64,000 bases of DNA, taken from assembly GCA_015956445.1 (NCBI GenBank), contig WIUZ02000016.1, forward strand, positions 372,001 to 436,000, given 5' to 3'. Each line of letters starts with the position of its first letter. The stretch's first letter is position 1. The position numbers and the translations under genes are program-made. Origin of the DNA: Thelephora terrestris (Eukaryota > Basidiomycota > Agaricomycetes > Thelephorales > Thelephoraceae). The notes beneath the pieces are model-generated. The model made no database searches. It was not told where the DNA came from and saw only the letters and a program-made list of their open reading frames with translations. This document shows, piece after piece, positions 1-36,126 of this stretch.

Positions 1-684
1 GCCCCTATTTCTTTTTGGACTAGTGTCATCTTTACCCCTATGTTTCATGCGGACATTTCTTATCTCTTATGCAATCCTTCACACACTAGTAAGGCCCTTT
101 GTCCTTTATTCTCCCACGCGTCATATTTGTTCGCTTCCCTTACTTAGTGTTCTCACACTCCTTATCTCCCTTTGTTCTGGCTTGATAAGGGTATATTAGG
201 GTATTGACGTCATGGCCACTTCTTTAGTATAAGTAGCAACTGTGGCTGTATTGTAGTACCTTAGTTTTGTTACCTCAGGAAATCCTCTGCCCTTCTCAGC
301 CCAGTTGCAGTTAAGGACAAGTCAGAGTTTCTTGTTTGAACACAAGGCATCCCCCATCTGCTCTCCCTCCCGCTCTGCGCGTCAACTGCGCCTTGTAACT
401 ATAGAACCCCAGTGTTCATCATATAGAATACCTCAAGCGTCCAGTCGATCACCTGGTGGAGTTATCAATCCTGTTGTAGGGATAAACCCTTGCTTGGTAA
501 ACCGAATGGAGTACGGTTTAGGTTGGGTTTCCCTTTAGGATTTTGACCTGACTTGTAGTGGCCTCGGACAACCTACCGGAAGAATAGAGAAGTGATCTTT
601 CTCTCACAAGCTAGTTGGACTAGTGAGCACTCTGTGGAGTCGGCTCAGTGCACTGGTAGTTGTTGGGGTAGAGTGGCCCTGACA
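1..684 (+). mobile_element. Element A: right end of a TG..CA solo-LTR-like element
   Basis: This is the right-hand part of the family that recurs complete as B, C and D; the window edge cuts off the left part. It ends in GGCCCTGACA, and the following five bases (ataag) would be its target duplication. It holds a TGACGTCA box at 205-212 and a TATA-like TATAAG at 228-233, followed by about 450 bases to the end, which is the layout expected of a U3-R-U5 LTR end. It is nearly identical to the matching part of C, so it is young. It sits inside the KDZ transposase gene to its right. Confidence 0.75.
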
Positions 685-4947: not shown

Positions 4948-5131
4948 TGTCAGGAACATGGTATTTTTAAACTTTTTATAACACACTCTTTCTTCGAACT
5001 CTTCTTACCACTTCTTATGTTTTGAATGCTTCACATGCCTTATCCTTCACACCAATCATTCGAAACACACAAATGCGCATACATTCACGGCAATACGGAA
5101 CAACTGGCTATACAATGCTTATACAACGTCC

Positions 5132-6869
5132 TCAAAAGTCGACTCTATCTACGGCAGGCCTCATGGTCATCAAGCGTCCATCCCGGAGATCGTAGTGCTG
5201 GCCCCTCCTCGCAAGAACCTCCCCGAACATGGCGTCACCATCTTCGGCACTCAGCTGAACGACGAGTTCAAGCCGATAGGAAGAGATGCCTTCGAGCGGA
5301 CCGATCAGCCTCCCAGATGTCACCGAACTCTGGAACACCTGGTCCCACATCTCCATCACCGGGTGACTGCTCTGCAGCACTATCGACGTAGTCGAAGAGC
5401 GACCCTCCGTCTCCCTCGTCACACCCCTGGGTGGGATCCTCTCTTGCGAGTCGAAGCTCGTGGCGAAGCTGGATCTCCGACTCGACCTGTCGGTAGGGAC
5501 GGTGGACCCGATGGCGGAACTCTCGTCCCCCACCTCGACCAGACTGGTCACCATCCGACTCAACTGGACGCGGATATGGGTTAGCCGAAGGAGCCATGCG
5601 ATGAGCAAGGCGGCGTCGAGAGCGTTTGCAACGCTGCCCCTTGATCACCGGACGTACCTCGATGGCCCTCGGAACATCTTCGGCCCGGTCGACCTCCATA
5701 ACCTCATCCTCGATCTTGACCAGCTGACTGATCGGCAGCAACGGGCAACGCCGACAGTTCTCCTTGTCGGACTCGGCCAAAGTAGAAGCCGGAGCAGGAG
5801 TCGGGACGGGAACCGCGTTCTCGATCGGAGGCGTCGCATAGGACGACGGGTTAGGCGATGGGAGTACCACCTCGTCGGCGTACTCCAATTCGAACGGAAC
5901 GTCGGCAGTTCCCTGACCGACCAACTTCGGACCCTCCTTGCAGTTACAGGTCTTATCCTGCAAGGACGCAACCTGCGCCGTCAACACAGCCACCACGTCC
6001 TCGAGCTGTTCCGTCTAGAAGAACCTCTCAGTCATTGCATAAACCTGCAAAGGCTGAAAGTACCTTTTCATCCCTTCTAGCCAACGCCCCCTTGATGTTG
6101 TTGTCCCTGACCTTCAGTCCGGCGATCAACTCTTGATGGTTGGCGACCATAGCCTCCAACGCCTCGTTTGTCCCCTGCTGGAAGGCGGCCAGAGTCTCCT
6201 TCATCTGAAGACCCTCCGCCGACAGACGAAGGACGTCTGCCTTCGCTTCCTTCACCTCACGCTCCAATCGTTCCACCTAGGCAGTTTGGTTAGTCGAGAG
6301 TCATACTCGAATATCCAAACGGAGAACCTACCTTGTTCTCTCCCTCCCGAACGAGCGACCATAATAACGAGGTAGCGGCGGTGGCATGACGGACGGCCCG
6401 AGGAACGGTTGCCCCGTGCTCCAACAGGTCCTGATCGTAGATCCCCCTCTGCAGGGTGTACCAGAGCTCCTTCTTGATTGGGTGCTCCAGCTCTCCGAAC
6501 CTACCCCTCATTCGGAAGACCACCTTCTCGGCGATCATGGTGTGGACCCAGAGCTCATCATCCCAGGTCAATCCCATCAAATGAGGGATCGTCTCCCTGA
6601 GACGTTCGGCGTCCACCTGCTGGACGACCTCCAAGATCTAGAAGCCGTTAGCTGGACATCAACGCCCGAAAGAACGAAACCTCTACCTAGAGGAAGGCGT
6701 TAGTGCTATCACAAGAAGCTCTAGTTCTCCCCCATACCTGATCATCCGTGGTATAGGGAGTACCAGCTGCGCAGGCATAGGTCTTGCGGGCGGCGACACG
6801 ACGGTCGATACGAGAGATGGTAGAGTTGCTGGTGGCGACTTTGTAGGTGTAGTTGTTGGGGAAAGACAT
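5132..6869 (-). CDS. Antisense gene inside element B (unknown function)
   Basis: Several coding blocks on the minus strand are separated by short gaps. In order they give an N-terminal piece MSFPNNYTYKVATSNS, a block with LTWDDELW, FGELEHPIKKELWYTLQ and a coiled-coil block (REVKEAKADVLRLSAEG), then a cysteine pair (CNCKEG) and a long acidic, proline-rich and arginine-rich tail. Elements C and D carry the same gene, nearly identical in D. A diverged relative with the same block order is in elements E and F. I recognise no catalytic domain. A DNA- or RNA-binding or structural role is possible but unproven. Confidence 0.55.
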
Positions 6870-7766
6870 GTTATGGTAAGATGATGGGGAAGTTGCTGGT
6901 GTTGCTGATCAAGGATGGCTCCAAGAAGACGTCCTTCTTATAGCCTAGATCGGTGATCCTTCACGTGACCTACCTCGACGAAACTCATTGGTCCGGGTCA
7001 CATCAACTTCCGCCCCTGTACCATCATCGTTGGCTTACTACATCAAGCTGACACCTCGGCCCGCGGGACGGCCTTGGAAGAACTTCGTTCCGGAACGCCT
7101 AGAACGCGCGCGCACTAAAAATAGGTCTCAAGACCCTGATGACCCCTTTATGACATCACGAACCCCTTTTACGACCCCTCATGACTTTACGATTACGATC
7201 AACCCTGGACCCTGATCACACACGTGGACAGTCACATCACAGTCTCCTAACCGGAGGAAGGACTCGCCGCTATTCGGAAGCATTGCCTTAGGATTCTTCT
7301 GGTTAGCCCAGCGCATGTGGAGTAGCCGTTAGCGTGAAACGCCGGCGAATCTGTAATCCCTTATGTCCCATGAGTCTAGGCCCTCGCTCCTCATGTTCGG
7401 ACGCACGATAAGGTTGCCACTAGTCCGTGATGCTGTTACCGCCTACAGACAACAAGGGATGCTGCATGGTCTCTATCTTTGGCCTCTCCAAAGGAAGCAT
7501 CCAAGAAGATTCTCACCTAGCCCTTGGGTGTGATCCCCAGGTACGAACTTTCATGACCCCATGCCCCTCTTTCTTTTAGGACTAGTGTTATCTTTACCCC
7601 TATGTTTCATGCGGACATTCGTTATCTTTTATGCAATCCTTCACACGCTAGTAAGGCCCTTTGTCCTTTATTCTCCCACGCGTCATATTTGCTCGCTTCC
7701 CTTACTTAGCGTTCACACACTCCTTATCTCCCTTTGTTCGGACTTGATAAGGGTATATTAGGGTAT

Positions 7767-7796
7767 TGACGTCATGGCCACTCCTTTGGTATAAGT
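7767..7796 (+). promoter_or_regulatory. TGACGTCA box plus TATA box of element B
   Basis: A perfect CRE/ATF-type palindrome TGACGTCA (7767-7774) lies 15 bases before TATAAG (7790-7795), pointing towards the right end of the element. The pair is conserved in A (205-233), C (13220-13248) and, inverted, D (16737-16765). It would start a transcript that leaves the element at its right end, as an LTR promoter does, opposite to the antisense gene. Confidence 0.6.
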
Positions 7797-8460
7797 AGCA
7801 ACTGTGGCTGTATCGTAGTACCTTAGTTTTGTTACCTCAGGAAATCCTCTGCCCTTCTCAGCCCAGTTGCAGTTAAGGACAAGTCAGAGTTTCTTGTTTG
7901 ATCCAAGACATCCCCCATCTGCTCTCCCTCCCGCTCTGCGCGTCAACTGCGCCTCGTAACTATAGAACCCCAGCGTTCAACTTATAGAACACCTCGAGCG
8001 TCCAGTCGATCACCTGGTGGAGTCATCAATCCTGTTGTAGAGATAAACCCTTGTCTGTTAAACCGAACGAAGTACGGTTTAGGTTGGGTTTCTCTTTAGG
8101 ATTTCGACCTGACTTGTAGTGACCTCGGACAACCTACCGGAAGAATAGAGACGTGATCGTTCTCTCACAAGCTAGTTGGACTAGTGAGTACTCTGCGGAG
8201 TCGGCTCAGTGCACTGGTAGTTGTTGGGGTAGAGTGGCCCTGACACAAGGGATTATTCTTACTGTCCTCAATCGGTATACAATCCCTTTCACTTCGCTCA
8301 TCGTTGTCCGATAGATCAGGACTGCGCTTGTAAGGTAGATCCTTTCCTTCTGGTTTAGCTTTATCTTTGTTCCTCCTTGTATTATTACTAGTGTTGTGAA
8401 TAAGACCAATGTCTTGAATGATCTGTGTGATCTTGGTTAATATGTCACGCGTTTGTGACA

Positions 8461-8919
8461 GGGTAAGTTTCTCACTCCTCGCAATTAACACTCATGAAAG
8501 CAAATGAGTTTCAATGTTGTTCAATGAAACCTGGGTCTGTTCATATGGTACATGTGATACTACTGAGCTAAAAGTCATTGTAACTCTGTATCTTATGACA
8601 ACAACCCACGAATGTAGCCAGAACCACAGATATCAAGTTGTCCTCAACACGATCAGTGCGATGCAGCCATCTTGGACCACCCAGGACACGACAGCACACT
8701 CTCGTTTGCACTGATCTGTGATTAAACCCAGATCATAGCTCGTTGGTTGTCTGCAATTCCTGATTTTCACCGCCTCTCTTTTTGTATAGTTGTGTTCCAC
8801 CCCACTTGATGTACCCTTCATTTCAGTCACGAGTAATTTTCCTTACTCACTCATGTGCGCGTGACTCAATGTGATCAAGATAGGGCTGAAAACCAAGAAA
8901 AGTAATCAACGCTAGATGT
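8461..8919. other. Non-coding stretch between element H and gene J
   Basis: No supported gene is seen. It includes the 3' flank of gene J, which ends at 8920. Confidence 0.4.
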
Positions 8920-9191
8920 CTACTCGTATCCGCACTCCCATTCGTCTTCCTCTATCAAATTCTTTGGCAGCTTCTGGTTCACCAACTGGACCTTGCCCTT
9001 CAACAAACAAACCTGATATGCAACGATCGCTTCTTCCTTGGAATGATATGACTGATGGATGGCCTTGGAGACACCTTGCGTTGCTTCAGCAACATGACTC
9101 CTGTGCACGTATGTCAGGAGACACAACGAATGAGGGTGGGCTGACTTACCAGGCGGCAAAAATCCCAATAGCCCTGCCCTTCGAGACGTAG

Positions 9192-9342
9192 CATTAGAAA
9201 AGGTGGTGCCAGCTTATTTCACTTATTTGTGATTATTCAATCTTATTTGTGACAGGATTCTGGACCTAGATCAAATAATCTCGAAATAATCAAAATAAGG
9301 TGCAATAATCGACAAATAACACAGCTGCCACCTTTTCTGATG
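9192..9342. mobile_element. Small MITE in gene J
   Basis: A 151-base element with inverted ends CATYAGAAAAGGTGG, followed by related GCCAGCT/GCAGCTG sequence, flanked by TAG on both sides (9189-9191 and 9343-9345). Its removal with one TAG restores the viroplasmin motif of J, which proves the boundaries. It carries no coding capacity. The 3-base TSD fits a CACTA- or Harbinger-type mobiliser. Confidence 0.8.
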
Positions 9343-9577
9343 TAGTACCACTTGCGACCAGAATTGCGCTCGGGTGGAGCATGGACAAGAGTGTCAGGAA
9401 CATGGTATTTTTAAACTTCTTATAACACGCTCTTTCTTCAAACTCTTCTTACCATTTCTTATGTTTGAATACTTTACACTCCTTATCCTTCACACCAACC
9501 ATTCAAACACACACAACGCACATACATTCACGGCAAAACGGAGCTACATGGCTATACTAATGCTTATAAAATGTTCT

Positions 9578-12315
9578 TCAAAAGTCGACTCTATCTACGG
9601 CAGGCCTCATGGTCATCAGTGTTCCATCCTGGAGATCGAAGGACTGGCCCCTCCTCGCAAGGATCTCTCCAAACATGGCGTCCCCGTCCTCTGCACTCAA
9701 CTGAACGTCTAGTTCAAGCCTATACAAAGAGATGCCTTCGAGCGGACCGATCAGCCTCCCAGATGTCACCGAACTGCGGAACACGTGGTCCCACATTTCC
9801 ATCACCGGGTGACTGCTCGGCAGCGCTGTCGACGTAGTCGAAGAGAGACCCTCCATCTCCCTCATCGGAGGCCTGGTCGGGGTCCTGTATTGCGAGTCAA
9901 GTGAGGTGCCTATGCTGGACCTGCGACTCGACCTGTTGGTTGGGACGGTTGACCTGATATCGGAATCCTCCTCCCTCGCCTCGACCAGACTGGTCACCAT
10001 CCGACTCAACTGGTTGAGGGTAAGGGTTAGCCGAAGGAGCCATGCGATGAGCAAGATGGCGTCGAGAGTGTTTGCAACGTTGCCCCTTAGTCACCGGATG
10101 TACCTCCACGAACTGTGGAACATCTTTGGCCCGGTTAACGACCATGACCTCATCCTCGATCTTCACCAACTGACTGATCGGCTGCAGCGGGCAACGACAA
10201 CAGTTCTCCTTGTCGGACTCGGCCAAAGTAGAAGCCGGAGCCGGAGTCGGGACGGGAACCATGTTCTCTACTGGAGGCGTGGCGTAGGACGACGGGTTAG
10301 GCGACGGGAGTACCACCTCGTCAGCGTACTCCAATTCGAACGGAACGTCGGCTGTTCCCTGTCCAACCAACACAGGACCTTCCTTGCAGTTGCAGGTCTT
10401 ATCCTGCAAGGACTCGACCTGCGCCGTCAACACGGACACCAGATCCTCGAGCTCCTCGATCTAGAAGGAAGTCCTTCAGTCATTGCATAAACCTGCAAAG
10501 GCTGAAAGAACCTTAACGCTGTCAACCCCGATCTTCTTTGAGTGCCTATCCAGGCGATCATCCCTGGTATCCAGGGCCTTCCTGATGTTGACGTCCTGAA
10601 CCTTCAGCCCGGCGACTAGCTCCTGATGGTTGGCAACCATCGCCGCCAATGCCTCGTTTGTCCCCTGCTGGAAGGCGGCCATAGTCTCCTTCATCAAGAG
10701 ACCCTCTGCAGACAGACGAAGGATGTCTGCTTTCGCCTCCGTCACCTCGCACTCTAAATGTTCAACCTAGGCAGTTTGGTTAGTCGAGAGTCATACTCGA
10801 ATATCCAAACGGAAAACCTACCCGGCTTTCCCCCTCCCGAACGAGCGACCACAAGAGAGTGGTGGAAGCGGTGGCATGGCGGACAGCCCGAGGAACAGTT
10901 GCCCCGTGCTCCAACAGATCCTGATCGTAGATCCCCCTCTGCAGGGTGTACCAGAGCTCCTTCTTGATCGGATGCTCCAGTTCCCCGAACCTACCCCTCA
11001 TCTCACTGGGGACAAGGGGTCAAATACCTGGTGGGTACATGCTGAACACATTGTGATCACAGTCAACAAGTGACTGCAATGTGCCCAGTGGGGGAAATTT
11101 TAATACATTCAAAATGTGCCTGGCCATGTGAGTCCAATGTGCCCAGTGGACACATTTTGATTGTGATCACAATGTACCTATCAATGTGATCTCAATGTGC
11201 CCACTGGGGACATTTTGGTTGTGATCACAATGTACACATCAATGTGAACTCAATGTGCCTGCTGTGCACATTTTAATTTCTTTCACAATGTTCCCATCAA
11301 TGTGTTCAAAATGTACCCAGCTCATTGAATAATAGTTTCTTTCAAAATGTTGTCCACAATGTGTCCAGCATGTGGCTGAGCCACTCATTCAAAATTCTTT
11401 CAAAGATTATCCAGTGATGTGTCCATAATGTCCCCAGGGGGTTCTTTTTGAAGTAATCACAATGTAATCTCAATATTGTTCAATTTCACCATGAACTTTC
11501 AAAGAAATCACTATGTGTATGGCTGTATACATTCTAGACACATCACTGGATACTTTGTGAAAGAAGTTTGAATGAGTGGCTCAGCCACATGCTGGACACA
11601 TTGTGGACAATATTGTGAAAGAAACTATTATGTAATGAGCTGGGTAAATTGTGAACACATTGATGGGAACATTGTGAAAGAAATTAAAATGTGCACAGCA
11701 GGCACATTGAGTTCACATTGATGTGTACATTGTGATCACAACCAAAATGTCCCCAGTGGGCACATTGAGATCACATTGATAGGTACATTGTGATCACAAT
11801 CAAAATGTGTCCACTGGGCACATTGGACTCACATGGCCAGGCACATTTTGAATGTATTAAAATTTCCCCCACTGAGCACATTGCGGTCACTTGTTGACTG
11901 TGATCACAATGTGTTCAGCATGTACCCACCAGGTATTTGACCCCTTGTCCCCAGTGTCTGGAAGATCACCTTCTCGGCGATCATCGACCGGGCCCGGGGC
12001 TCGTCGTCCCGGGTCAACCCCATCAAATGTGGGATCGTCTCCCTGAGACGTTCGGTGTCCACCTGCTTGACGACCTCCAAGATCTAGAAATCGTTAGCTC
12101 GACATCTACGCCAAAGAACATACGACCTCTACCTAGAGGAAGGAGTTAGTGCAAACACAAGAAGCTCTAGCTCTCCCCCATACCTGTTCATCAGTGGTAT
12201 AGGGAACCCCCACCTCATTGGCGTAGGTCTCACAGTTGGCTGCACGGCAGTCGATGCGGGAAATGGTGGAGATGCCGTTGGTGACTTTGTAGGTATGGTT
12301 GTTGGGAAAGGACAT
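9578..12315 (-). CDS. Antisense gene inside element C, interrupted by a MITE
   Basis: This is the same antisense gene as in elements B and D, with the same N-terminal, LELEHPIKKELW-type, coiled-coil and cysteine/arginine-rich blocks. The MITE at 11004-11956 lies inside its second block, so this copy is very likely silent. Sequence differences from B and D are scattered, which shows that C belongs to a slightly older sub-lineage. Function is unknown. Confidence 0.5.
11001..11959. mobile_element. Foldback MITE 1 (11004-11956), CACTG tips, TSD tct
   Basis: A 953-base near-palindrome with tips CACTGGGGACAAGGGG, flanked by tct on both sides. Its two arms mirror each other over almost their whole length around about 11480. 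The interior is built from repeats of CAATGTG, CACATTG and TGTGATCACA. There is no ORF. The CACTG tips and 3-base duplication place it with CACTA-type elements. Confidence 0.85.
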
Positions 12316-13219
12316 TTTGATAAGATGATGGGGAAGTTGCTGGTGTTGCTGATCAAGGATGGCTCCAAGAAGACGTCCTTCTTATAACCTAGATCGGTGA
12401 TCCTTCACGTGACCTACCTCGACGAACCTCATTGGTCCGGGTCACATCAACTTCTGCCACTGTACCATCATTGTTGGCTTACTACATCAAGCTGACACCT
12501 CGGCCCGCGGGACGGCCTTGGAAGAACTTTGTTCCGGAATGCCTAGAACACGCGCGCCCTAAAAATAGGTCTCATGACCTTGGCGACCCCTTTACGAACC
12601 CCTTTACGACCCTGATGACTCATTTATGACATCACGATAACGACCAACCCTGGACCCTGATCACACACGTGGACAGTCACATCACAGTCTCCTAACCGGA
12701 GGAAGGAATCGCCGTTAATCACTAGGAGTGCCTTAGACTCCTTTTGGTTAGTCAAGCGAATGTGGAAGTAGCCGTTAGCGTGAAACGCCGGCGAAGCATG
12801 TAATCCCTCATGTCCCATGAGTCTAGGCCTGACCTCCTCATGTTCGGACGTACGTTGAGGTTGCCACTAGTCCGTGATGCTGTTACCGCCTACAGACAAC
12901 AAGGGATGATGCATGGTCCCTTATCTCGGAGCCGCTCGAAAATTGCACGGAGCAATGAGAGGTTTCCACCTGACCCTTGGGTGTGATCCCCAGGTACGAA
13001 CTTTCATGACCCCATGCTCCTATTTCTTTTAGGACTAGTGTTATCTTTACCCCTATGTTTCATGCGGACATTTCTTATCTCTTATGCAATCCTTCACACA
13101 CTAGTAAGGCCCTTTGTCCTTTATTCTCCCACGCGTCATATTTGTTCGCTTCCCTTACTTAGTGTTCTCACACTCCTTATCTCCCTTTGTTCTGGCTTGA
13201 TAAGGGTATATTAGGGTAT

Positions 13220-13248
13220 TGACGTCATGGCCACTCCTTTAGTATAAG
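13220..13248 (+). promoter_or_regulatory. TGACGTCA box plus TATA box of element C
   Basis: TGACGTCA at 13220-13227 and TATAAG at 13243-13248, the same spacing as in B, pointing to the right end of C. Confidence 0.55.
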
Positions 13249-14557
13249 TAGCAACTGTGGCTGTATTGTAGTACCTTAGTTTTGTTACCTCAGGAAATCC
13301 TCTGCCCTTCTCAGCCCAGTTGCAGTTAAGGACAAGTCAGAGTTTCTTGTTTGAACACAAGGCATCCCCCATCTGCTCTCCCTCCCGCTCTGCGCGTCAA
13401 CTGCGCCTTGTAACTATAGAACCCCAGTGTTCATCATATAGAATACCTCAAGCGTCCAGTCGATCACCTGGTGGAGTCATCAATCCTGTTGTAGGGATAA
13501 ACCCTTGCTTGGTAAACCGAACGAAGTACGGTTTAGGTTGAGTTTCCCTTTAGGATTTTGACCTGACTTGTAGTGGCCTCGGACAACCTACCGGAAGAAT
13601 AGAGACGTGATTGTTCTCTCACAAGCTAGTTGGACTAGTGAGTACTCTGCGGAGTCGGCTCAGTGCACTGGTAGTGTTGGGGTAGAGTGGCCCTGACAAA
13701 GAGTTCTGACTACGTGCTGCAGGTTCGCGAGCCGGATGAACGGTAATTCGCCGAGATAGTTGGGGTCAGCTCGGATCTTAGACTTTACGAGCTCAAACTC
13801 TGAAACAATAAGCACCAATGGCGTGACTTTCAGAAATAACTCACCATGCTTCAACAGAGTTGACTCGTTGACCTCTATCGCCAAGAGATCAGGATGGATG
13901 CCAAGTGCTCTAGGCATTCCCCCGCCGGCCGGGAGTGGACTTGACAATGGCAACAGGGAAGCAGTCACGCCACTGCAGTGGTTACGAGTGGAATGTCTGG
14001 GTTCCCTGTGTGGTGTCAGCAGGAGATTGTGAGTGGACAGCAGCTGATCCGATGTCTGGGACACCGCAGAAATGGTGGGGGTAGGGGACGGAACACTGCG
14101 TTTGCTGTGCACTGGTGAACTGCTGAGAGCATCTGCTGTCTGGTTGGACCGGAGCCGAGCGGAGGTCGTAGAAGGGGTGGGCCATGGAGAAAATTCAATG
14201 CCTTCATCAATGGAGGAACCATTGGCTGGTTCGTAAACCGCTGTGGCATGGTGTCTGGTGTCACTAATCACAGGGCCAATAGTGAGGGTGGGTCAGTGGG
14301 AGAAAGTTTGAAACGGAGTACCTGTGATTCGCGTGGGATGGTGCCTTGCAACGCGGAGAAGCGACGTCAGAAATTTGGGAGGATCCCGCAGGAGAATCCT
14401 GCCACAAATTCATCGACCCCAGCATGAGCGGCGAGAGAAGCTCGGGGGCGGGTGGTTGCCGTAGATCAATGCTACCTGAAGGTGGAGTTGAGATGTTGGT
14501 CAAACTTCTGGGTAGGAGGTCAGTCTGCAGGACATATAAAAATAAAAAATCTCTCAC

Positions 14558-15033
14558 GAAGCCCCCCCCTGGTTGACGTATTTTTCAAAATATTCCTTCG
14601 CTTTAGATAGCGTTAACGAAATGAGAAGAAAGATAAAAAATAATTTGAATGACCTTTCTCGGGGCCACCGGAAACCAGGAGGAGCCAGGAAAGAGCATCT
14701 ATGATATCTTTGTCCATGGATAAGCGCAAGGGAGACGTGGCATGGGAAACGTGCCAAACCCTGCCCTTGGCTGCCAGCAGGGGCGCTAATCACCCATCAG
14801 GCATAAAACGGAGCATCGCCATCAATATCCCTCATTGATCGCCTCCTTCTTAACCACTGGCATTGAGCTACCGCTAATCGACCGCCTTCAAAATGGAAAG
14901 TTCCACGGTGGAACCAACAGACATCTCGCGGAATTTAAGCTGTTCCGAGGATACCCTCCTGTTCCACGCTGCTTTCCCTTGCTTCTCATCTTTCTCCTGC
15001 CTACTTTTCTTTCCTGCCACTCTTATCTCAGAG
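14558..15033. promoter_or_regulatory. Shared upstream region of divergent genes J and K
   Basis: Genes J (minus) and K (plus) face away from each other across this stretch. Part of it may hold an unrecognised first exon of J: a probable splice acceptor (ctgcag) for J lies at about 14527. I see no clear TATA box. Confidence 0.35.
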
Positions 15034-16736
15034 ATGGGACGACCTCGATGGACTACGCCCGAACAACTCGCCTTTCTCGAGTCCTTCCTTCACCTGCTCC
15101 CACAAGTTAAAGGGTCTACTGGGCTTACCACGCTGTACTCGCAAGTCTACGACGCCTTCCTGCAGAAGTGGGACCCAGCACCTCTCAAACCAGACCCCAA
15201 GCTATCTCCCGAGGCTCTTGAGGCTGCAGTGAAAACAAGGCTGCATAGCGTAAGTCTTTTTTTTGGTTCTTTATGCTCGTGTACTCACAGATCTTTAGCG
15301 CATCGCCTACTGGTATGGATGCGAGCGACAGGCCGCCATGAAGGGGCTGCCGTACTCGAAACCAGCACCTCGTGTCCTCGACTTATCCGGCAAGTCACGG
15401 CATAAGAAGTCCCCCTATCAACCTCACCAGGCATTCTCCATCCTACACTGGCAACCAGCGGGCTCCTCACTCCATGGTGAGGTCGAGGACCTCTGGGCCC
15501 AACAGCTCGAACCTTCTGTGCACCAAATGCTCAAGCCGTTCCTCAGCGAAACTGCCAAGTCCTCATCCACGACTTCGGAGAAGCTACTATTCCACATGGC
15601 CGTCATGCACTGGAAGTGCAGCCTCTTGTCTCCGGATGAGCGCACTGAGCTTAACAGCTGGATCAACCACCAAAAAATTCAAAGGAGGCAGCTCGAACCC
15701 TTCCATGGTCAGTGGAAGCTGGCGAACATGGAGACGATCTATTCACTGAGAACTCTTATGTGCAACGGTTAGTTTCCGCACCCTTTGTTGACAGCGGACA
15801 CTGAACTCACTATCTTATAGCTCTATTGACAACCTGGCGACCACGGTACAGACGGCCATTGAGGAGATCGAGCGGCAAACTGGCTGGAAGGCAATGGTCA
15901 TCCTCGGCGGTCTCAAACCGGGTGCAGGAGGAATTACCAGTCACCTGTAAGCCTCACCACCGTCTCTCGTGCCCCAACCCTTCTAACCCTTGCATAGATA
16001 CGAGACTGGGAAGTCTAGAAATACTGAACAGTTGTTCCGTGAAGCCCACCCTGAAGTCGTGACTGTGTGCACAATGTTTCACGAGTGGCTACGTACAGTA
16101 TACAGTACATAATTTTATTGTCTCTAGAGACTCTTCACTGACCGTTTTACCCCAGGTGACGAGGAGAAAAAGCAATGCTCCTTGCAGGGTGCCATCTCTC
16201 TTCTTTCCATGGCCTCGCCCCCTCTTTTGGACCTAACCGCTATGGGGACCAAAGACGCCAGCTTCTCGCTCCACCTTGCAGACACCTGTCAGGGCCACTC
16301 TACCCCAACAACTACCAGTGCACTGAGCCGACTCCGCAGAGTACTCACTAGTCCAACTAGCTTGTGAGAGAACGATCACGTCTCTATTCTTCCGGTAGGT
16401 TGTCCGAGGTCACTACAAGTCAGGTCGAAATCCTAAAGAGAAACCCAACCTAAACCGTACTTCGTTCGGTTTAACAGACAAGGGTTTATCTCTACAACAG
16501 GATTGATGACTCCACCAGGTGATCGACTGGACGCTCGAGGTGTTCTATAAGTTGAACGCTGGGGTTCTATAGTTACGAGGCGCAGTTGACGCGCAGAGCG
16601 GGAGGGAGAGCAGATGGGGGATGTCTTGGATCAAACAAGAAACTCTGACTTGTCCTTAACTGCAACTGGGCTGAGAAGGGCAGAGGATTTCCTGAGGTAA
16701 CAAAACTAAGGTACTACAATACAGCCACAGTTGCTA

Positions 16737-16765
16737 CTTATACTAAAGGAGTGGCCATGACGTCA
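16737..16765 (-). promoter_or_regulatory. TGACGTCA box plus TATA box of element D
   Basis: The mirror image of the box pair in B: TGACGTCA at 16758-16765 and CTTATA (TATAAG on the minus strand) at 16737-16742, directed to the left end of D. Confidence 0.55.
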
Positions 16766-17664
16766 ATACCCTAATATACCCTTATCAAGTCCGAACAAAG
16801 GGAGATAAGGAGTGTGAGAACGCTAAATAAGGGAAGCGAACAAATATGACGCGTGGGAGAATAAAGGACAAAGGGCCTTACTAGCGTGTGAAGGATTGCA
16901 TAAAAGATAAGAGATGTCTGCATGAAACATAGGGGTAAAGATAACACTAGTCCTAAAAGAAAGAGGGGCATGGGGTCATGAAAGTTCGTACCTGGGGATC
17001 ACACCCAAGGGTCAGGTGGCAATCTCCCTTTACATAGTTGTACCAGCGGATTCGGGAGTAGAGCCATGCAAACATCCCTTGTTGTCTGTAGGCGGTAACA
17101 GCATCACGGACTAGTGGCAACCTCAACGTACGTCCGAACATGAGGAGGTCGGGCCTAGACTCATGGGACATGAGGGATTACAGATTTGCCGGCGTTTCAC
17201 GCTAACGGCTACTCCACATGCGCTGGGCTAACCAGAAGGATCCTAAGGCGATACTTCCGAATAGCGGCGAGTCCTTCCTCCGGTTAGGAGACTGTGATGT
17301 GACTGTCCACGTGTGTGATCAGGGTCCAGGGTTGATCGTAATCGTAAAGTCATGAGGGGTCGTAAAAGGGGTTCGTGATGTCATAAAGGGGTCATCAGGG
17401 TCTTGAGACCTATTTTTAGTGCGCGCGCGTTCTAGGCGTTCCGGAACGAAGTTCTTCCAAGGCCGTCCCGCGGGCCGAGGTGTCAGCTTGATGTAGTAAG
17501 CCAACGATGATGGTACAGGGGCGGAAGTTGATGTGACCCGGACCAATGAGTTTCGTCGAGGTAGGTCACGTGAAGGATCACCGATCTAGGCTATAAGAAG
17601 GACGTCTTCTTGGAGCCATCCTTGATCAGCAACACCAGCAACTTCCCCATCATCTTACCATAAC

Positions 17665-19405
17665 ATGTCTTTCCCCAACAACTACACCTACAAAGTCGCC
17701 ACCAGCAACTCCACCATCTCCCGTATCGACCGTCGTATCGCCGCCCGCAAGTCCTACGCCTGTGCAGCAGGTACCCCTTATACCACGGATGATCAGGTAT
17801 GGGGGAGAGCTAGGGCTTCTTGTATTAGCACTAACGCCTTCCTCTAGGTAGAGGTTTCGTTCTTTTGGGCGTTGATGTCCAGCTAACGGCTTCTAGATCT
17901 TGGAGATCGTCACGGAGGTGGACGCCGAACGTCTCAGGGAGACGATCCCTCACTTAATGGGGTTGACCTGGGACGATGAGCTCTGGGTCCGTACTATGAT
18001 CGCCGAGAAGGTGATCTTCCGGATGAGGGGTAGGTTCGGAGAGTTGGAGCATCCGATCAAGAAGGAGCTCTGGTACACCCTGCAGAGGGGGATCTACGAC
18101 CAGGACCTGTTGGAGCACGGGGCGACTGTTCCTCGGGCTGTCCGCCATGCCACTGCCGCCACCTCGTTATTGTGGTCGCTCGTTCGGGAGGGAGAGAACC
18201 GGGTAGGTTCTCTGTTTGAATATTCAAGTATGACTCTCGACTAATCCAACTGCCTAGGTTGAACGATTGGAGCGTGAGGTGAAGGAGGCGAAGGCAGACG
18301 TCCTACGTCTGTCAGCGGAGGGTCTTCAGATGAAGGAGACTCTGGCCGCCTTCCAGCAGGGGACGAACGAGGCGTTGGAGGCAATGGTCGCCAACCATCA
18401 AGAGTTGATCGCCGGGCTGAAGGTCAGGGACAACAACATCAAGGGGGCGTTGGCCAGGAGGGATGAAAAGGTAATGCCGCTTTCATCATTTGTTTAGAAT
18501 GATGGAAGCTGACATTTCCTAGACGGAACAGCTCGAGGACGTGGTGGCTGTGTTGACGGCGCAGGTCGCGTCCTTGCAGGATAAGACCTGCAACTGCAAG
18601 GAGGGTCCGAAGTTGGTTGGTCAGGGGACTGCCGACGTTCCGTTCGAGCTGGAGTACGCCGACGAGGTGGTACTCCCATCGCCTAACCCGTCGTCCTATG
18701 CGACACCTCCGGTAGAGAACGCGGTTCCTGTCCCGACTCCGGCTCCGGCTTCTACTTTGGCCGAGTCCGACAAGGAGAACTGTCGGCGTTGCCCGTTGCT
18801 GCCGATCAGTCAGCTGGTCAAGATCGAGGATGAGGTTATGGAGGTCGACCGGGCCGAAGATGTTCCGAGGGCCATCGAGGTACATCCGGTGATCAAGGGG
18901 CAGCGTTGCAAACGCTCTCGACGCCGCCTTGCTCATCGCATGGCTCCTTCGGCTAACCCATATCCGCGTCCAGTTGAGTCGGATGGTGACCAGTCTGGTC
19001 GAGGTGGGGGACGAGAGTTCCGCCATCGGGTCCACCGTCCCTACCGACAGGTCGAGTCGGAGATCCAGCTTCGCCACGAGCTTCGACTCGCAAGAGAGGA
19101 TCCCACCCAGGGGTGTGACGAGGGAGACGGAGGGTCGCTCTTCGACTACGTCGATAGTGCTGCAGAGCAGTCACCCGGTGATGGAGATGTGGGACCAGGT
19201 GTTCCAGAGTTCGGTGACATCTGGGAGGCTGATCGGTCCGCTCGAAGGCATCTCTTCCTATCGGCTTGAACTCGTCGTTCAGCTGAGTGCCGAAGATGGT
19301 GACGCCATGTTCGGGGAGGTTCTTGCGAGGAGGGGCCAGCACTACGATCTCCGGGATGGACGCTTGATGACCATGAGGCCTGCCGTAGATAGAGTCGACT
19401 TTTGA
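17665..19405 (+). CDS. Gene inside element D, antisense to its promoter (unknown function)
   Basis: The cleanest copy of the B/C/D gene, on the plus strand here. Blocks in order: MSFPNNYTYKVATSNS (17665), the LTWDDELWVRT / LEHPIKKELWYTLQRG block (17900-18200), a coiled-coil block (18267-18470), then CNCKEG and an acidic, proline-rich stretch (18541-18900) and an arginine/serine-rich tail ending near 19405. Blocks are separated by short non-coding gaps. It is unlike any LTR-retrotransposon core protein I know. Function is unknown. Confidence 0.55.
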
Positions 19406-19661
19406 GGACGTTGTATAAGCATTGTATAGCCAGTTGTTCCGTATTGCCGTGAATGTATGCGCGTTTGTGTGTTTCGAATGATTGGTGTGAAGGATAAGGA
19501 ATGTGAAGCATTCAAAACATAAGAAGTGGTAAGAAGAGTTCGAAGAAAGAGTGTGTTATAAAAAGTTTAAAAATACCATGTTCCTGACAACACCAATATT
19601 CCAACCACTCCCATGCATACCGGTGGCAACCCTCCACCCCACCCTGCAGACACCGACGGTC

Positions 19662-21033: not shown

Positions 21034-21471
21034 TCACCATGGATATGGAGACCGAAGATGACTCCCCACCCTACCTTGCTGGCACGAATGATATGACCAC
21101 CGCTATGGATACCGAGGATGACGCCTCCCTACCCCACCTTGCAAACACAGACAATCCAACCTCTCCCACTGGTGCGGATGATCAACAAAGTCTCAACCTT
21201 CCTGCATCATCCCTACCACAGACTGTCAGCGTGCTGAATTTTATTCCCTTTTTAAACCATTTTCTACACCCAACTTTCGCCCACTTTCCTTACCTATACC
21301 CCTTTCCTATCTCATCGTTTTCCTTATCACGACTCACACGTCATCCGAAAGGCAAAACACAGATGATATTACAGTGGGCGGACCCACAACAAAGACACAA
21401 GACGAATGGCCAACGGAGTTGAATCCGCACCGACCCTATGGACATAGACTAACATGCACCGACTTTAGTCG

Positions 21472-23226
21472 TCAAGACCTGGTTTGCCAGTACTCCTCAG
21501 CACTGACAATCTCCTCCTCCGTCCCCTCCGAGGCACTCTCGACGACTTCCTCGTCGACCATCTCGACAACCCGAGCTTCCTCCAGACGATGAGCGACGGC
21601 CAGCTGAACCTCGGCGCGCAGGCGGTTCCTCGCTGAATCGACCGTAGTCTGATCCAGAGTCCTCTGGACTGACCAACCCTCCACTCTCTCGGTCAGTTGA
21701 GCCACCAGGCGAACGGCCTCCGCTGCACGCTGGACCGACAAGAGCGTAAGGTTCGTCAATCCGTTCACGTCGACGGATTCCGCCGGAATCAACTCGCCGC
21801 GATCCACGCGACACTGCAACATCGTTGCGTCGGAATAGGACGGTGGACTCGATGTCTCCACCCTGGCGGACAGCGTCTGGATTACTGGGACGCATGCGGT
21901 GGGCTGGACGAAGTGACCCGCGATAAGGAACCCGTCGACGAGCACGGATAGAACGTTGCCCACGCACCGGCGAGATCGACGGAGGCGGAACCGGAACGGC
22001 CACCTCGTTCTCCCCCGCATACTCCAACTCGGGAGAACTGCTAACCGGATTGACGGCCGTCTCCTCGGACGTCTCTCGAACGACCTCCTCCCCGCCATCA
22101 GTGTGCGCAGGCGTGCGGTACGACCCATCGGACGCTAAGAGGGATGTCAGTAGACAAGTCAAATATGTCAACCGGCATCCCGACCTATTGGGGAAGCCAT
22201 CCGATCCGTAATCGACTTGTCCCTGGACTCGTCGCGAACCGCAGCTACCGAACGCGTACGGCAGTGGCACAATCGCTCACTCATCGACTCGACCCGAGCG
22301 CCCAGCAACGGCAAGGTGTCATCCAACGTATCAACCTAGAAGTGGTATGAGCTCTCTTGGTTAAAAGACCAGGAGAAGTCGCACCGACCTTGGTGTCGAG
22401 CTCATTGAGAGCCCTTCGATGACGGTTGAGCCGTCGGTCGACCTCGATTAAATCTCGTTGGATGGTGTCGTCCCGTTCTTTCAAGGACTCCACCAATCGA
22501 TTGTGTTCCTCCCGCATTGCCAGCATCTCGCTCTCGAACGTCACGCGGAGCGTATCATTCATCAGGAGCAGCGTCTTCTTCATGTCCAACGCCTCCGGGT
22601 ACATCCTACGAGCGTCGTCCTTCGCTTCCTTCACCTCGCGCTTCAGCCGCTCATTCTATAAAGTCCATCAGTGTTATCCCACAAGCGGGATGCACAGATC
22701 GACTCACCGCTTTCTGTTCCGTCCTCAGAAGGAACCAAAGGCGGTGACCAACAGCAGCTGTGTAGTGTTGGGAACGAGTCGCCCCCGGCCACCTTCCTTC
22801 GCCATTTCCCAAGTCGTAGATCCCCATCCGCAGGAGCCCCCACAGCGACGAAGCCACAGGAGTCTCATACGGCATGCGTAACTCGGTGTTAAACGTTACC
22901 CCTCTCATCGACTCCTGCAGCTTGTGGTCGATCAAGTTGTGATACCACAACTCGTCGTCCATGGTCAGGTAGCTGGGAGGCTTGGCGATCGTTGCCTCCA
23001 GTTGTCGAGCATCCACCTTGTCGGCAACCGCGAAGATCTGCGAAAAGCGATGTCAGTCGACGCCAGAACCGGCGTACGCGTGACAACGCGCCTCTCGATA
23101 ACTGGGATACGCCACGTTGGCGTTCGGAAGAAAGTAGCCCTTGTTCTGCACGGACCGAGGATCAGCGGACTCGATGGTAGCGGTACTGTTCTCAGCACGG
23201 AAGACACGATCAGAGATCATTGGCAT
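21472..23226 (-). CDS. Antisense gene inside element E (relative of the B/D gene)
   Basis: Blocks on the minus strand: MPMISDRVFRAENSTATIES near 23226, a block with LTMDDELWYHNLIDHKLQ and PVASSLWGLLRMGIYD (near 23000-22650), a coiled coil (REVKEAKDDARRMYPEALDM, near 22630), and a tail with CHCR near 22230 and many acidic and arginine residues. The block order and the DDELW, LW..L..GIYD and REVKEAK motifs match the B/C/D gene, so the two families share an ancestral gene although the rest of the element differs. Function is unknown. Confidence 0.55.
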
Positions 23227-23667
23227 GGTTGGAGGAGTAGTTGGTTGGTTTGGGAAGAAGGGAGTTTGATGGATCCAACAGCCGGTTCGCGCTACGCTTT
23301 ATCCGACCATCGACAGCGCTCACGTCCTATCTGCCATTGGATCGGACCATCGTTTCACCGGTCCAGACTCCCCATACAATTCGCCCTCGACATTCAAACT
23401 CCACTCGGTCTTTTGTTGCCCCGATCGGACGAGCTGACGCGTTGTCTTCTTATTGGTCAGTCTTCGCATGTGATATTGTTCTTTGTCATTCCTTTCCCAC
23501 ACGACGTCATGACCCCTTTCTTATTCTCTCACGAACCCTGACCCCTTAGTCATTCCTTTATCATTTCTATTCCATAACCCGGGCCGCTTACTGTTTCAGC
23601 TTATTCTCGGCCCTTCTTTACTCCGAGTTATTATTAGATAGGGTTATCTATGTCCCGGCCACTCTTC

Positions 23668-23675
23668 TATATAAG
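23668..23675 (+). promoter_or_regulatory. TATA box of element E
   Basis: TATATAAG followed by about 460 bases to the right end of E. Element F has the matching box in inverted orientation at 36127-36133. Confidence 0.5.
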
Positions 23676-24178
23676 TACCAGTAGAGTAGCTGAGGACTCC
23701 CCATCTTTGATATCTCGGGAAGTCCTCTTCTCCTTGCAGCATCGGTGTATTTGCTGTAGGCCACTGAAGAGCTTATCGAGTAACTCTCTGAACACGTTCG
23801 CTCTCCTCTCTCTCTCAGCCTTGTGTCAAGAATCGGCGAACGCGCTTACGAAAAGGAGTTCCTCGCCGCTCTCTTGATCAAGCACCAGTTTGAGGCGCCA
23901 TCCTCGGGCTCTTATATCTGCCCTCCGAAGACAATAGGGATTTATCTGATAGAGGCTCGGCACTCCTGCTGTGAATTCGGACAACCTACCGGAGAACGCT
24001 CGTCCATCGCGTTTTGGACCACGTAGACTTTGGGTGGATATAGGGAAGTCGTTCCCCCTTTGCCCCATTGTTTCTTGTTGGTTGGAGTTGCGACTCGCCA
24101 ACAGCACTGGTACCTGAAGGGCGAAGAGTGGCCCTGACACAGACTATGGATCCCTCACCTTTTGACCCCACCTCCAGA

Positions 24179-33348: not shown

Positions 33349-33898
33349 TGTCAGGGCCACTCTTCGCCCTTCAGGTACCAGTGCTGTTGGTGAGTTGCAA
33401 CTCCAACCAACAAGAGTCAATGGGGCAAAGGGGGAACGACTTCCCTATATCCACCCAAAGTCTACATGGTCCAAAACACGATGGACGAGCGTTCTCCGGT
33501 AGGTTGTCCAAATTCACAGCAGGAGTGCCGAGCCTCTATCTGACAAATCCCTATCGTCGTCTGAGGGCAGATGTAAGAGCCCGAGGATGGCGCCTCAAAC
33601 TGGTGCTTGATCAAGAGAGCGACGAGGAACTCCTTTTCGTAAGCGCGTTTGCCGATTCTTGATACAAGGCCAAGAGAGAGAGGAGAGCGAACGTGTTCAA
33701 AGAGGTACTCGATAAGCTCTTCAGTGGCCTACAGCAAATACACCGATGCTGCAAGGAGAAGAGGACTTCCCGAGATATCAAAGATGGGGAATCTGTCACG
33801 AACACGTGACATGTTATTCAAAATCACACAGATCATTCGAGACATTGGTCTTATTCGCAGAAATAAAAGTACAAGGAAAGCTAACCAATACTACAAAC

Positions 33899-34796
33899 TT
33901 AAACAAGAACAAACGGATCCACGTCACAAGGACAGTCCTGAGGATACGGACAACGATGAGCGAAGTGATGGGGGTTATGGACGCTCTGAGGACAATAAGA
34001 ATACACCCGAGTTACCGGGTCTTGCCAACACTCCCTGCATCCCAACGCATCGTGGAACAAACTATCATGCATCTCCCGCTTCACGTCCGTCAATGCCGCA
34101 CTCACTAATGCGAACCCATAACGGTCTTGGAGACCCGCTACCTCCACTTTCAGCTTCATTCGAACCTGACGTGACTTGTCGGAGGGACGACAGCGTTGAC
34201 CAGTACGAGTCATCGGATTCCTGCGCTCTTTCTTCTTCTGGGTCCTCACCACCATCTGACGACTCGGAACAGGACTCCAAGGAGGGGATTGAGGGAGAGG
34301 AACCCCCTGATCGTGAAGGTGGCGGAGGGATGATGGGGGAGTGAGGAGCTGCGTCGGTGCAGTAAGCTCCGTGGCATCGATGGCCGAAGTACCGGAGGAG
34401 AGATTCCTGGAAAGGTTTCCAATTTTCCAAGGCAAAGTGAGAGAAGTCGTCATTGAGACTGTTGACAACGACATACATGACATCCATCCTCTTCTCCAAC
34501 TTCAAGATCCTATCCTCTCTCTCTTGTTCCATCGCGTCTTGCATGGGGGTAACCCCAGGAGCCCACCTTCGAGTCTTGTTGGGGTCTTCGTACCCAGCCC
34601 GCTCCCAGAACTCGGCGGGAGCATTGTGAGCGGTCAAGAAATCCACCGCCACCTGATTGTCGTGAGCGATGTTGGCGGGGGTATCATACAAGTGTTGCTC
34701 CACGTCGAAGGGAGCGTCCGCCTCAAAGGACAAAGTGAAGTCGAAGGGGGTGGCGGCAGCGTTAAGCAAGGCGTTGTTGGCAACGTAGGCCGACAT
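33899..34796 (-). CDS. Gene on the inner side of element G (unknown function)
   Basis: Starts MSAYVANNALLNAAATPF and contains VEQHLYDTPANIAHDNQV, a short charged coiled-coil segment with REDRILKLEKRMDVMYVVV, and CHGAYC, followed by a proline/serine-rich, acidic tail. It is the partner of the gene at 4185 in element H. The part 33899-34100 reads in a second frame, so exact coding limits are uncertain. No catalytic domain recognised. Confidence 0.55.
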
Positions 34797-35303
34797 AGTA
34801 GTAGAGGGTGTTTTAGAGAAAGGGGTGGTAATGGTAATTGTGGGAGAGGAAAAGAGACGATGGGAAAAGAAACCTATAATCCCCCTGGATTATATACGAC
34901 TGATTCAATAGGAAGCCAAAAGGGGAAGACAATGAATCATTGCCCATTTAAGTCCCAATTAGGATAAACGAACCCTTAACCCCAATCGCGATCCCATCAA
35001 ATCCTGAGAAATCCCCATCGATCAGGAGAAATCCCCATCAATCTTCTATTGCTACCATGAAACAAGGGAAATCCCCATTGATCATGAGAAATCCCCACTA
35101 GCCTTCTATTACCACCATGAAACGTGAGAAATCCCCCATTGTGCTTCTAATGACTCATTCGCTATTAATCCCATCTCGTTTCGTTATTTGCCGTTCTAAA
35201 AGTCCCACCTTGCTAACTCACTTACCCTGCCCTAAACTACGCACAGACCCTGTTGACTCCTGTTTAGCTCGTTGTAGAATAATGACTCCTGTAGAGGATT
35301 GGG

Positions 35304-36081: not shown

Positions 36082-36126
36082 GCAGGCCCACACCCCTGAC
36101 AGAATCCTCAGCTACTCTACTGGTAT

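Follow-up and report, generated by a model that had tools for sequence, protein, structure and literature searches.

A predicted spliced antisense gene within the U3 of solo LTRs from a Ty3/gypsy chromovirus of Thelephora terrestris

Introduction

In the review passages cited here, the antisense genes of long terminal repeat (LTR) elements are found for the most part in the interval from pol to the 3′ LTR. This is the position of the antisense accessory ORFs of plant Gypsy elements (Grande gene23, RIRE2, the Retand TRP28 ORFs, and PvRetro13), which these passages describe as present in most copies, served by their own promoter in Grande, and suspected to encode a nuclear regulator (PMC7264820; PMC11963269). 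In Botrytis cinerea, the brtn gene of Boty is an antisense gene in a fungal gypsy element with a chromodomain pol (PMC7264820; PMC4227169; PMC8365987), and it is grouped, in the passage concerned, with the ORFs between pol and the 3′ LTR (PMC7264820). HBZ of HTLV-1 and APH are described in the cited section as LTR-driven antisense genes with spliced and unspliced protein forms that act as nuclear regulators of the sense promoter; in the 3′ LTR, HBZ transcription starts within R and U5, and the HBZ isoforms have different N-termini (PMC10186651).

Here, we describe an LTR family, F1, recognised in a 64,000-nucleotide stretch of the Thelephora terrestris genome (the window). Like the plant Gypsy elements, F1 has an additional gene that runs antisense to gag-pol and is conserved from copy to copy, as in the aORF-3R class; unlike the plant ORFs of the internal region, this gene lies inside U3, is predicted to be spliced, and appears to code in two frames. 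Because the plant ORF lies in the internal region, a solo LTR would lack it. Boty, likened to F1 by description alone, is likewise a fungal gypsy element with a chromodomain pol and an antisense gene, but brtn lies outside the LTR and the F1 gene within it. The likeness to HBZ and APH is one of working only, without kinship shown: the F1 gene sits within U3, its predicted isoforms differ at the C-terminus, and its product has no significant bZIP match.

The sag gene of MMTV is a sense-strand superantigen gene within the LTR U3; the F1 gene shares this location, differs in strand and in the superantigen product, and is likened to sag by layout only. Tf1/sushi chromoviruses combine a chromodomain integrase with self-priming from the RNA start, as F1 seems to do, and differ from it in having, to our knowledge, short LTRs and no antisense gene. 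Within the literature covered, which takes in a minority of subscription papers and includes parts of PMC7264820, PMC10186651, PMC11963269, PMC8365987, PMC4227169, and PMC10787394, we found no description of an antisense gene that is spliced and lies within an LTR.

Identity of the element

The F1 copies of the window are as follows.

1..684, + strand: further F1 LTR, end part only, clipped by the window edge
4948..8245 (3298 bp), + strand: B, solo LTR, with the 5-bp duplication CAAGG at 4943-4947 and 8246-8250
9392..13698 (4307 bp), + strand: C, solo LTR with a nested insert; duplication AAGAG
11004-11956 (953 bp): nested insert in C
16287..19589 (3303 bp), − strand: D, solo LTR; duplication ACACC

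The initial annotation had reported TG..CA tips and distinct 5-base duplications, and these were confirmed: B, C, and D each start with TGTCAGG, end with CCTGACA, and are flanked by perfect 5-bp duplications (3/3). B and D are 96% identical across 3311 columns. Self-comparison also agrees with the statement that the two ends of each unit are not direct repeats, with no direct repeat longer than 150 bp within B or D and, in C, one only inside the nested insert. Among nine F1 copies outside the window with both ends paired, the 5-bp duplication is perfect in six, has one mismatch in one, and differs in two.

That these units are giant solo LTRs, as had been inferred, is supported by locus L039, where B's LTR unit also borders gag-pol. 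There, an LTR (63-3355) is followed by gag, a pol with a chromodomain and, from 9373, the next LTR in direct orientation; the two lie 9,310 bp apart and enclose open gag and a PR-RT-RH-IN-chromodomain pol. A pair of direct-orientation copies 4-10 kb apart around gag-pol, which had been suggested as the feature to look for, thus exists at the one full-length locus read; its second LTR was read over the first 628 bp, and the two LTRs differ at 2 sites in the 628 bp compared. Pfam places RVP_2 at 119-217 of pol, RVT_1 at 367-535, RNase H at 624-730, integrase zinc and core domains at 845-1017, and Chromo at 1218-1267, which is the Ty3 order (protease-RT-RNase H-integrase) with a chromodomain added. 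A purine-rich tract, AGGAAGAGGA / AGGAAGAGGATAA, precedes the 3′ LTR at the expected place. Internal probes of F1 located 8 gag-pol internal regions in the genome, against 443 unscored LTR candidates (40 scored per search), which suggests that most F1 copies are solo LTRs. Another pair of LTRs, about 9.4 kb apart at C3, was rejected as a full element because its 3′ member is flanked by its own perfect duplication and so is a solo copy; the LTR claim therefore rested on L039.

Three candidate sites in the LTR are as follows.

7790..7795, + strand: TATAAG, picked by eye as a candidate promoter for the element's sense strand
7824..7835, + strand: TAGTTTTGTTAC, presumed R start and self-primer, 12 nt complementary to the sequence directly after the L039 LTR
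6937..6942, − strand: TATAAG, candidate antisense promoter, 73 nt upstream of the ATG, picked by eye

The 12-nt self-primer match lies 34 nt downstream of the TATA, and none of 2000 30-mers drawn at random from the interior of L039 gave a match of at least 12; the element RNA would start near 7824 and prime itself. The block at 6870-7100, around the antisense TATAAG, is the least variable noncoding block measured (pi 0.024).

An unnamed family of DDE DNA transposons with TGTCAGG..CCTGACA inverted tips, in which the antisense gene would be the transposase or an accessory gene, had been offered as the alternative. It would account for the short inverted tips, the 5-bp duplications, and single-unit candidates in the hundreds. 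Such numbers had been named as telling against LTRs if no copy flanked gag-pol; the hundreds of candidates were indeed found, yet so were the 8 internal gag-pol regions, and units in direct orientation enclose gag-pol. Between the tips, a retroviral-type integrase is the sole transposase-like domain, the antisense gene has no transposase domain in Pfam, and the self-primer and the purine-rich tract AGGAAGAGGA stand where an LTR element expects them. We give the transposon reading practically no credence, and the gag-pol copy at L039 has already refuted it. The sequence evidence identifies units B, C, and D as solo LTRs that belong to a Ty3/gypsy chromovirus, one whose gag and pol are open at another site in the T. 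terrestris genome.

The antisense gene and its constraint

The U3 of about 2.9 kb carries an antisense gene with a TATA-like site and five predicted exons encoding 479 aa.

5132..6869, − strand: B antisense gene, exons 6869-6738, 6637-6332, 6276-6064, 6014-5658, and 5563-5132; predicted spliced product 479 aa
9578..12315, − strand: C antisense gene, exon 2 interrupted by the insert 11004-11956
17665..19405, + strand: D antisense gene, exons 17665-17796, 17897-18202, 18258-18470, 18523-18879, and 18974-19405; both isoform frames open

The coding part is confined to the LTR, where it lies on the upstream side of the presumed R, and both stop codons are in the LTR. Selection statistics were taken from 30 copies, drawn from the best-scoring 40 of 424 candidates and skewed toward B's close relatives. 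In these copies, third codon positions are 1.9-4.4 times more variable than the others, and the phase of variation tracks all five exons (MWU p between 1e-5 and 5e-20); the nine tests for a codon-phase signal made in introns 1-3 all stayed above 0.05 (lowest 0.054). For exons 1-4, pN/pS is 0.13 vs 1.31 and 2.60 in the shifted frames, and the 236 private variants (42 of them supplied by C) include 0 stops against 7.4 expected. An omega-like ratio of 0.43 for private vs 0.12 for shared variants indicates weaker constraint on the former, and the solo copies may thus be under little constraint. Taken across copies, these codon-position statistics show purifying selection on the F1 antisense gene and bear out the long multi-block antisense gene that the initial annotation had placed in U3; the ‘coiled-coil and cysteine blocks’ ascribed to it correspond to a predicted coiled coil and a C-x-C motif.

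Intron 4 and two predicted overlapping C-termini

5564..5657, − strand: intron 4 of the B antisense gene, 94 bp, GT-AG, coding if retained; retained isoform 465 aa, with its stop at 5268
5268..5563, − strand: predicted two-frame overlap region of the retained and spliced isoforms, 296 nt in 27/30 copies

Splicing of intron 4 shifts the frame, and two overlapping C-termini are therefore predicted. The intron is 94 bp long and GT-AG in all 30 F1 copies; its pN/pS in the retained frame is 0.23, and its periodicity follows that frame, a signal that is modest taken alone (p=0.005). The alternative intron of two further families, F3 and F2 (see below), is likewise constant in length and GT-AG (11/11 copies each), and the three lengths (94 bp in F1, 64 bp in F3, and 70 bp in F2) are each 1 mod 3. 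In the overlap region, where pS is low, pN/pS is 0.60 in the spliced and 0.65 in the retained frame. Stops within 5563-5366 occur in the retained frame in 5 of the 30 F1 copies and in the spliced frame in none. The basic GQRxxRxRR..AHRM segment is present only in the predicted retained isoform.

The gene might instead make a single isoform, with intron 4 never spliced and a later short intron (e.g. 5424-5370, 55 bp) switching the frame, so that no dual coding would arise. F1 does have a conserved GT..AG pair at 5424-5370 with a length of 1 mod 3, and periodicity in 5545-5366 is weak, with the interval 5455-5366 peaking in the retained phase; the intervals 5545-5456 and 5500-5411, however, peak weakly in the spliced phase. 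Further points against it are the constant overlap lengths (296 in 27/30 F1 and 396 in 11/11 F3 copies) beside introns 1-3 that vary, a retained frame open through to its own stop in 17/30 F1 and 8/11 F3 copies and also in the relatives P0076 and P0077, and the public T. terrestris gene models for F1, which, although themselves predictions, include both the retained (P0001) and the spliced form (P0007). We consider the single isoform unlikely. Under dual coding, one stretch of the F1 gene may be read in two frames to give two proteins, and both overlapping C-termini seem constrained.

Further families in the window

21224..24139, + strand: F3 solo LTR, duplication CAGAC; this LTR is also found after pol in L071-L073
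21472..23226, − strand: F3 antisense gene, exons 23226-23092, 23037-22708, 22655-22389, 22335-22185, and 22134-21968, and last exon 21903-21472
21967-21904, − strand: F3 alternative intron, 64 bp; predicted isoforms 506 aa (retained) and 493 aa (spliced)
33794..36101 (2308 bp), + strand: F2 LTR-like unit nested in an F3 copy; tips TGTCACG..CCTGACA, duplication GAATC
33899..34796, − strand: F2 antisense gene, alternative intron 34476-34407 (70 bp); predicted isoforms 243 aa (retained) and 275 aa (spliced)

The F3 and F1 antisense proteins are homologous (30% identity, E 4e-31), the retained-intron peptide included. Both overlap frames are open in 8/11 F3 copies; the first intron of the window's F3 copy is GC-AG. 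This conservation bears on the idea that the protein is dispensable and that the antisense RNA is what matters, as a non-coding regulator or silencing trigger. Antisense RNA over U3 would have complementarity to the genomic RNA at its 3′ end, and the cited parts of PMC7264820 and PMC10186651 discuss non-coding roles of antisense retroelement RNAs; codon-level selection and the F1-F3 amino-acid conservation nevertheless argue that a translated product is needed, and we regard a role of the RNA alone as very improbable.

Comparison of the F2 and F1 proteins detected no kinship. In nine judged F2 copies, the retained frame is open in all (9/9), the spliced frame to its stop in only 4/9. On its tips, duplication, and layout, F2 may be called LTR-like. 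No autonomous partner was found at the candidate loci on C6 and C59: a supposed full-length element on C6 was rejected, being nested F2 units instead, and beside a distant pol on C59 there is no F2 unit within the 4.5 kb fetched upstream.

Protein relatives and domain searches

Among the best ~8,000 candidates scored per search, the F1 protein matched 71 clusters, all from T. terrestris, and the F3 protein had 8 matches, of which 5 are from T. terrestris and 3 lie on short jgi or ena contigs. The 71 ‘hypothetical protein’ clusters sum to 257 member sequences, some of them fragments or chimeras and not necessarily distinct genes. The retained frame is kept in the relatives P0076-P0078 (57-63% identity). 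Separately, the chimeric gene models P0062 and P0026 seem to be products of nested insertions.

No Pfam match to the F1 antisense protein reached the cut-off; TRP28 is absent among the Pfam matches listed for it, and the best bZIP match, bZIP_1 (E 0.52), scored 10.9 bits, below the 27.6 cut-off. A PDB sequence search gave nothing significant, and fold searches with two AlphaFold models, both poor (pLDDT 45 and 48.5), gave no significant match. Weak coiled-coil matches in homology searches were discarded, and Rfam gave 0 matches on the window. Because there is no recognisable domain, good model, or fold match, the function of the product is a guess by analogy.

Proposed mechanism and significance

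Overall, we think it probable that F1 is a chromovirus whose LTR carries a selected U3 antisense gene with two isoforms and a product that regulates the element in trans; by analogy, regulation of the element is the most likely role of that product. The gene would be transcribed from each LTR, with both isoforms produced by intron retention. Since the gene is antisense to the element RNA, its introns would not be removed from that RNA and would survive reverse transcription, and since it sits in U3, each insertion would have two gene copies, of which LTR-LTR recombination into a solo LTR would leave one. The coiled-coil product, with the basic segment only in the retained form, would enter the nucleus and act in trans on the element, at transcription, silencing, or integration; solo LTRs would thereby keep supplying it.

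Such a product might help the element (through anti-silencing, nuclear import, or integration choice) and not restrain it. Selection is strongest on variants common to many copies, i.e. on lineages that transposed, as for a gene required for transposition, and section 5 of PMC7264820, as far as cited here, proposes likewise for antisense ORFs generally; present evidence does not discriminate help from restraint, and we hold help to be a serious possibility that falls just short of probable. Trans regulation of the element, in whichever direction, also admits a bolder extension, which we consider unlikely: solo LTRs would be up to several hundred stand-alone genes for a two-isoform trans regulator, with a dose that tracks lifetime insertions and a copy-number memory that outlives gag-pol, and the layout with a frame-switching retained intron of 1 mod 3 would have arisen, or been kept, in three families, two of LTRs and one LTR-like.

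F1 extends the few known antisense genes of LTR elements by a position (inside U3) and a form (five predicted exons, with overlapping C-termini). It explains 71 T. terrestris ‘hypothetical protein’ clusters as one LTR-borne gene and carries a warning for annotation, namely that solo LTRs this large will be called host genes. With it, the trans action of solo LTRs becomes a testable question.

Identity of the F1 elements

The window covers positions 372001-436000 of contig C8 in genome G000. Three 3.3-kb units of F1, a Ty3/gypsy chromovirus family, lie in it, each with the TGTCAGG..CCTGACA tips and perfect 5-bp duplication (3/3) that the initial annotation had described:

4948-8245: F1 LTR, element B
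9392-13698: F1 LTR, element C
16287-19589: F1 LTR, element D

Their interpretation as LTRs is borne out by L039, a locus outside the window, on contig C23, at which the same F1 unit brackets gag-pol: an LTR (63-3355) is followed by 6,017 bp of internal DNA and, from 9373, by a next LTR in direct orientation, giving a spacing of 9,310 bp, within the 4-10 kb that had been anticipated. Internally, the locus encodes gag in a frame of 681 aa that includes a zinc knuckle, and pol in one of 1,322 aa that spans protease, RT, RNase H, integrase and chromodomain. Where its LTR pair can be compared, over 628 bp of the second LTR, the two differ at 2 sites. The bracketing of gag and pol rules out the alternative of a DDE transposon family.

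Both ends of B were used as queries against the 40.6-Mb genome; each returned 443 first-look candidates, of which 40 were scored, all 40 being full-query matches, so that F1 copy number is an estimate. Target site duplications in nine further copies with both ends were perfect in six, had one mismatch in one, and differed in two. When either end of the internal DNA served as probe, the same 8 F1 regions were recovered (8/11 matches with one probe, 8/8 with the other), which, set against 443 LTR candidates, suggests that F1 consists mostly of solo LTRs. On contig C23, F1 units recur in exact 9,310-bp steps; at L039 and C23:1029462-1048481, two element bodies apparently have a common middle LTR at this same exact spacing, and the shared LTR on C23 perhaps marks a tandem made by recombination.

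Tf1/sushi-type elements are self-priming. The stretch adjoining the L039 LTR, read as its reverse complement, has 12 nt (TAGTTTTGTTAC) in common with the LTR, where they lie 34 nt downstream of a TATA-like site; none of 2000 random internal 30-mers from L039 equals this match. Such a candidate self-primer would have the expected look of Tf1/sushi-type priming, and its position would put the start of R near 7824 in B, with a U3 of about 2.88 kb.

Nested within C is a 953-bp inverted-repeat insert (11004-11956), a foldback with tips CACTGGGGACA..TGTCCCCAGTG and, by eye, a 3-bp TCT duplication, which we take to resemble a small CACTA-type element; a partial relative occupies roughly 38600-39440. 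The stretch separating D from the F3 LTR contains, at 19664-21031, a near-perfect 1.37 kb palindrome (97.7% self-complementary) with internal 187-bp repeats, and 26225-26505 is a contig-internal, telomere-like (CCTAA)n array.

The antisense gene of F1

In B, the antisense gene is predicted to run from an ATG at 6869 to 5132:

6869-6738, minus strand: exon 1
6637-6332, minus strand: exon 2
6276-6064, minus strand: exon 3
6014-5658, minus strand: exon 4
5563-5132, minus strand: exon 5

The predicted introns (100, 55, 49 and 94 bp) are GT-AG. TATAAG occurs 73 nt upstream of the ATG, within 6870-7100, the region of lowest diversity (pi 0.024) among the noncoding regions measured (7700-8245 being outside coverage).

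The alignment comprises 33 copies (B, C, D, L039 and 29 further loci); 30 of them span >90% of the gene, and the other three (L042, L062 and L065) were excluded. The loci were drawn from the 40 best of 424 candidates, a bias to B's near relatives, and this ascertainment favours close, probably young copies.

Diversity at codon positions 1/2/3 in the F1 antisense gene
Exon 1:.064/.065/.260
Exon 2:.076/.028/.169
Exon 3:.057/.023/.173
Exon 4:.053/.031/.186
Exon 5:.051/.050/.095

Diversity at third codon positions is 1.9 to 4.4 times that at the other two (p between 1e-5 and 5e-20), and in a sliding window the variation peak switches to the predicted phase at every intron; within introns 1-3, none of nine tests for phase fell below 0.05 (lowest 0.054). 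Over exons 1-4, pN/pS is 0.13, compared with 1.31 and 2.60 for identical sites in shifted frames; on the sense strand the ratio is 1.12, 0.23 or 2.85 according to frame, and coinciding wobble columns presumably explain the low value. GT-AG is conserved in 29/30 copies at intron 1 and in 30/30 at introns 2-4. If C is counted without its insert, 23/30 copies keep the spliced frame open throughout, so that 22/30 are truly uninterrupted; the frame that retains intron 4 is open in 17/30.

Intron 4 and the overlapping frames

Unlike introns 1-3, which vary in length, intron 4 measures 94 bp in all 30 copies. Read in exon 4's frame, its diversity by codon position is.051/.056/.174 (p 0.005), its pN/pS is 0.23, and stops occur in 3/30 copies versus 30/30 in each other frame; by these measures it behaves like coding sequence in that frame. 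Most of the public gene models examined splice it, and P0001 keeps it.

Removal of intron 4 shifts the frame, so that 5563-5268 is readable in two ways. There, pN/pS is 0.60 in the spliced and 0.65 in the retained frame, and synonymous change runs at roughly a third of its level in exons 1-4; beyond the retained stop, where the spliced frame runs alone, pN/pS is back to 0.15. The simplest reading of these patterns is overlapping constraint on both frames. A later short intron might instead account for the frame change, and its phase match is not bad in every window, but overall it fits the phases more poorly than overlap does. No copy (0/30) has a spliced-frame stop in the overlap, whereas retained-frame stops occur in 5/30 copies in 5563-5366 and in 1/30 in 5365-5269, so the retained form is less strictly kept.

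Antisense genes in F3 and F2

Two further families have units in the window:

21224-24139: F3 unit, duplication CAGAC
33348 to about 38593: second F3 copy, interrupted
33794-36101: F2 unit, duplication GAATC
2937-4947 plus 8246-8460: F2 unit disrupted by B

The second F3 copy is broken by the F2 unit and by a 0.5-kb foldback (37395-37896) that recurs at 24182-24683. At three loci (L071-L073) the F3 LTR comes after a pol whose integrase part is 71% identical at the amino-acid level, and on C23 two same-direction F3 units 8,758 bp apart flank that pol. The F3 and F1 antisense proteins match over most of their length (30% identity, E 4e-31), including the coiled coil, the C-x-C motif and the retained-intron peptide (GQR..R..R..RPAHRM.PS), and the first intron is at the matching place. 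Phase tracks exons in F3 too (12 copies). With the partial L080 set aside, the last intron is 64 bp and GT-AG in 11/11 copies, the overlap is 396 bp in 11/11, and both isoform frames are open in 8/11; intron 1 is GC-AG in three copies. Three proteins encoded on short jgi or ena contigs, probably metagenomes, are 57-63% identical; all of them preserve the retained frame, and two end at the same C-terminus.

The F2 antisense protein had no kinship with that of F1 detectable in sequence comparison, and no copy around gag-pol was found among the F2 copies examined. Its gene likewise changes frame (11 copies), at a GT-AG segment that measures 70 bp in 11/11, and it has a stretch in which variation is lowest at the codon position under constraint from both frames. 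Of nine judged copies, all nine have an open retained frame and only four a spliced frame that reaches its stop. L082 and L086, truncated during extraction, were left out of this count; L091 had also lost its start and L087 its end. The frame-switching segments of F1 (94 bp), F3 (64 bp) and F2 (70 bp) each have a length that leaves a remainder of 1 on division by 3.

At 2937-8460, B sits within the F2 unit's antisense gene, an LTR-into-LTR nesting; at L070 (G000:C6:151700-158400) multiple F2 units are nested, one within another's antisense gene. Two public models, P0062 and P0026, have the appearance of chimeras derived from nests of this kind.

Product, inheritance and selection

Both the coiled-coil and the cysteine blocks claimed initially hold up: a coil is predicted, confidently in the second structure model at about residues 160-260 (structure models are poor outside it), and there is a C-x-C. 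The protein also has acidic stretches, proline-rich stretches and a basic segment confined to the retained form. Taken together, these features suggest that it is a nuclear factor that dimerises and has two outputs; similar proposals exist for other antisense retroelement proteins.

In the reviews consulted, antisense ORFs lie mainly between pol and the 3' LTR (PMC7264820; PMC11963269), whereas that of F1 lies inside U3; HBZ is expressed from the 3' LTR, through its R and U5 regions (PMC10186651). The literature searched, as partly available, yielded no description of an antisense gene that is spliced, read in two frames and located within an LTR.

Genomic RNA would span R of the 5' LTR to R of the 3' LTR, and the antisense gene would therefore be carried once, inside the 3' U3. 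From this anatomy, its introns would be invisible on the genomic-RNA strand and restored in both new LTRs; their presence in the aligned copies is consistent with survival through the RNA stage. LTR recombination would then delete gag-pol and leave the antisense gene.

The omega-like ratio is graded: it is 0.12 where at least 4 copies share a variant, 0.23 where 2-3 do, and 0.43 for private variants. The 236 private variants in exons 1-4 (42 from C) include no stops against 7.4 expected (p 5e-4). The gradation and the missing stops would place constraint chiefly along transposing lineages, and perhaps on resident copies too.
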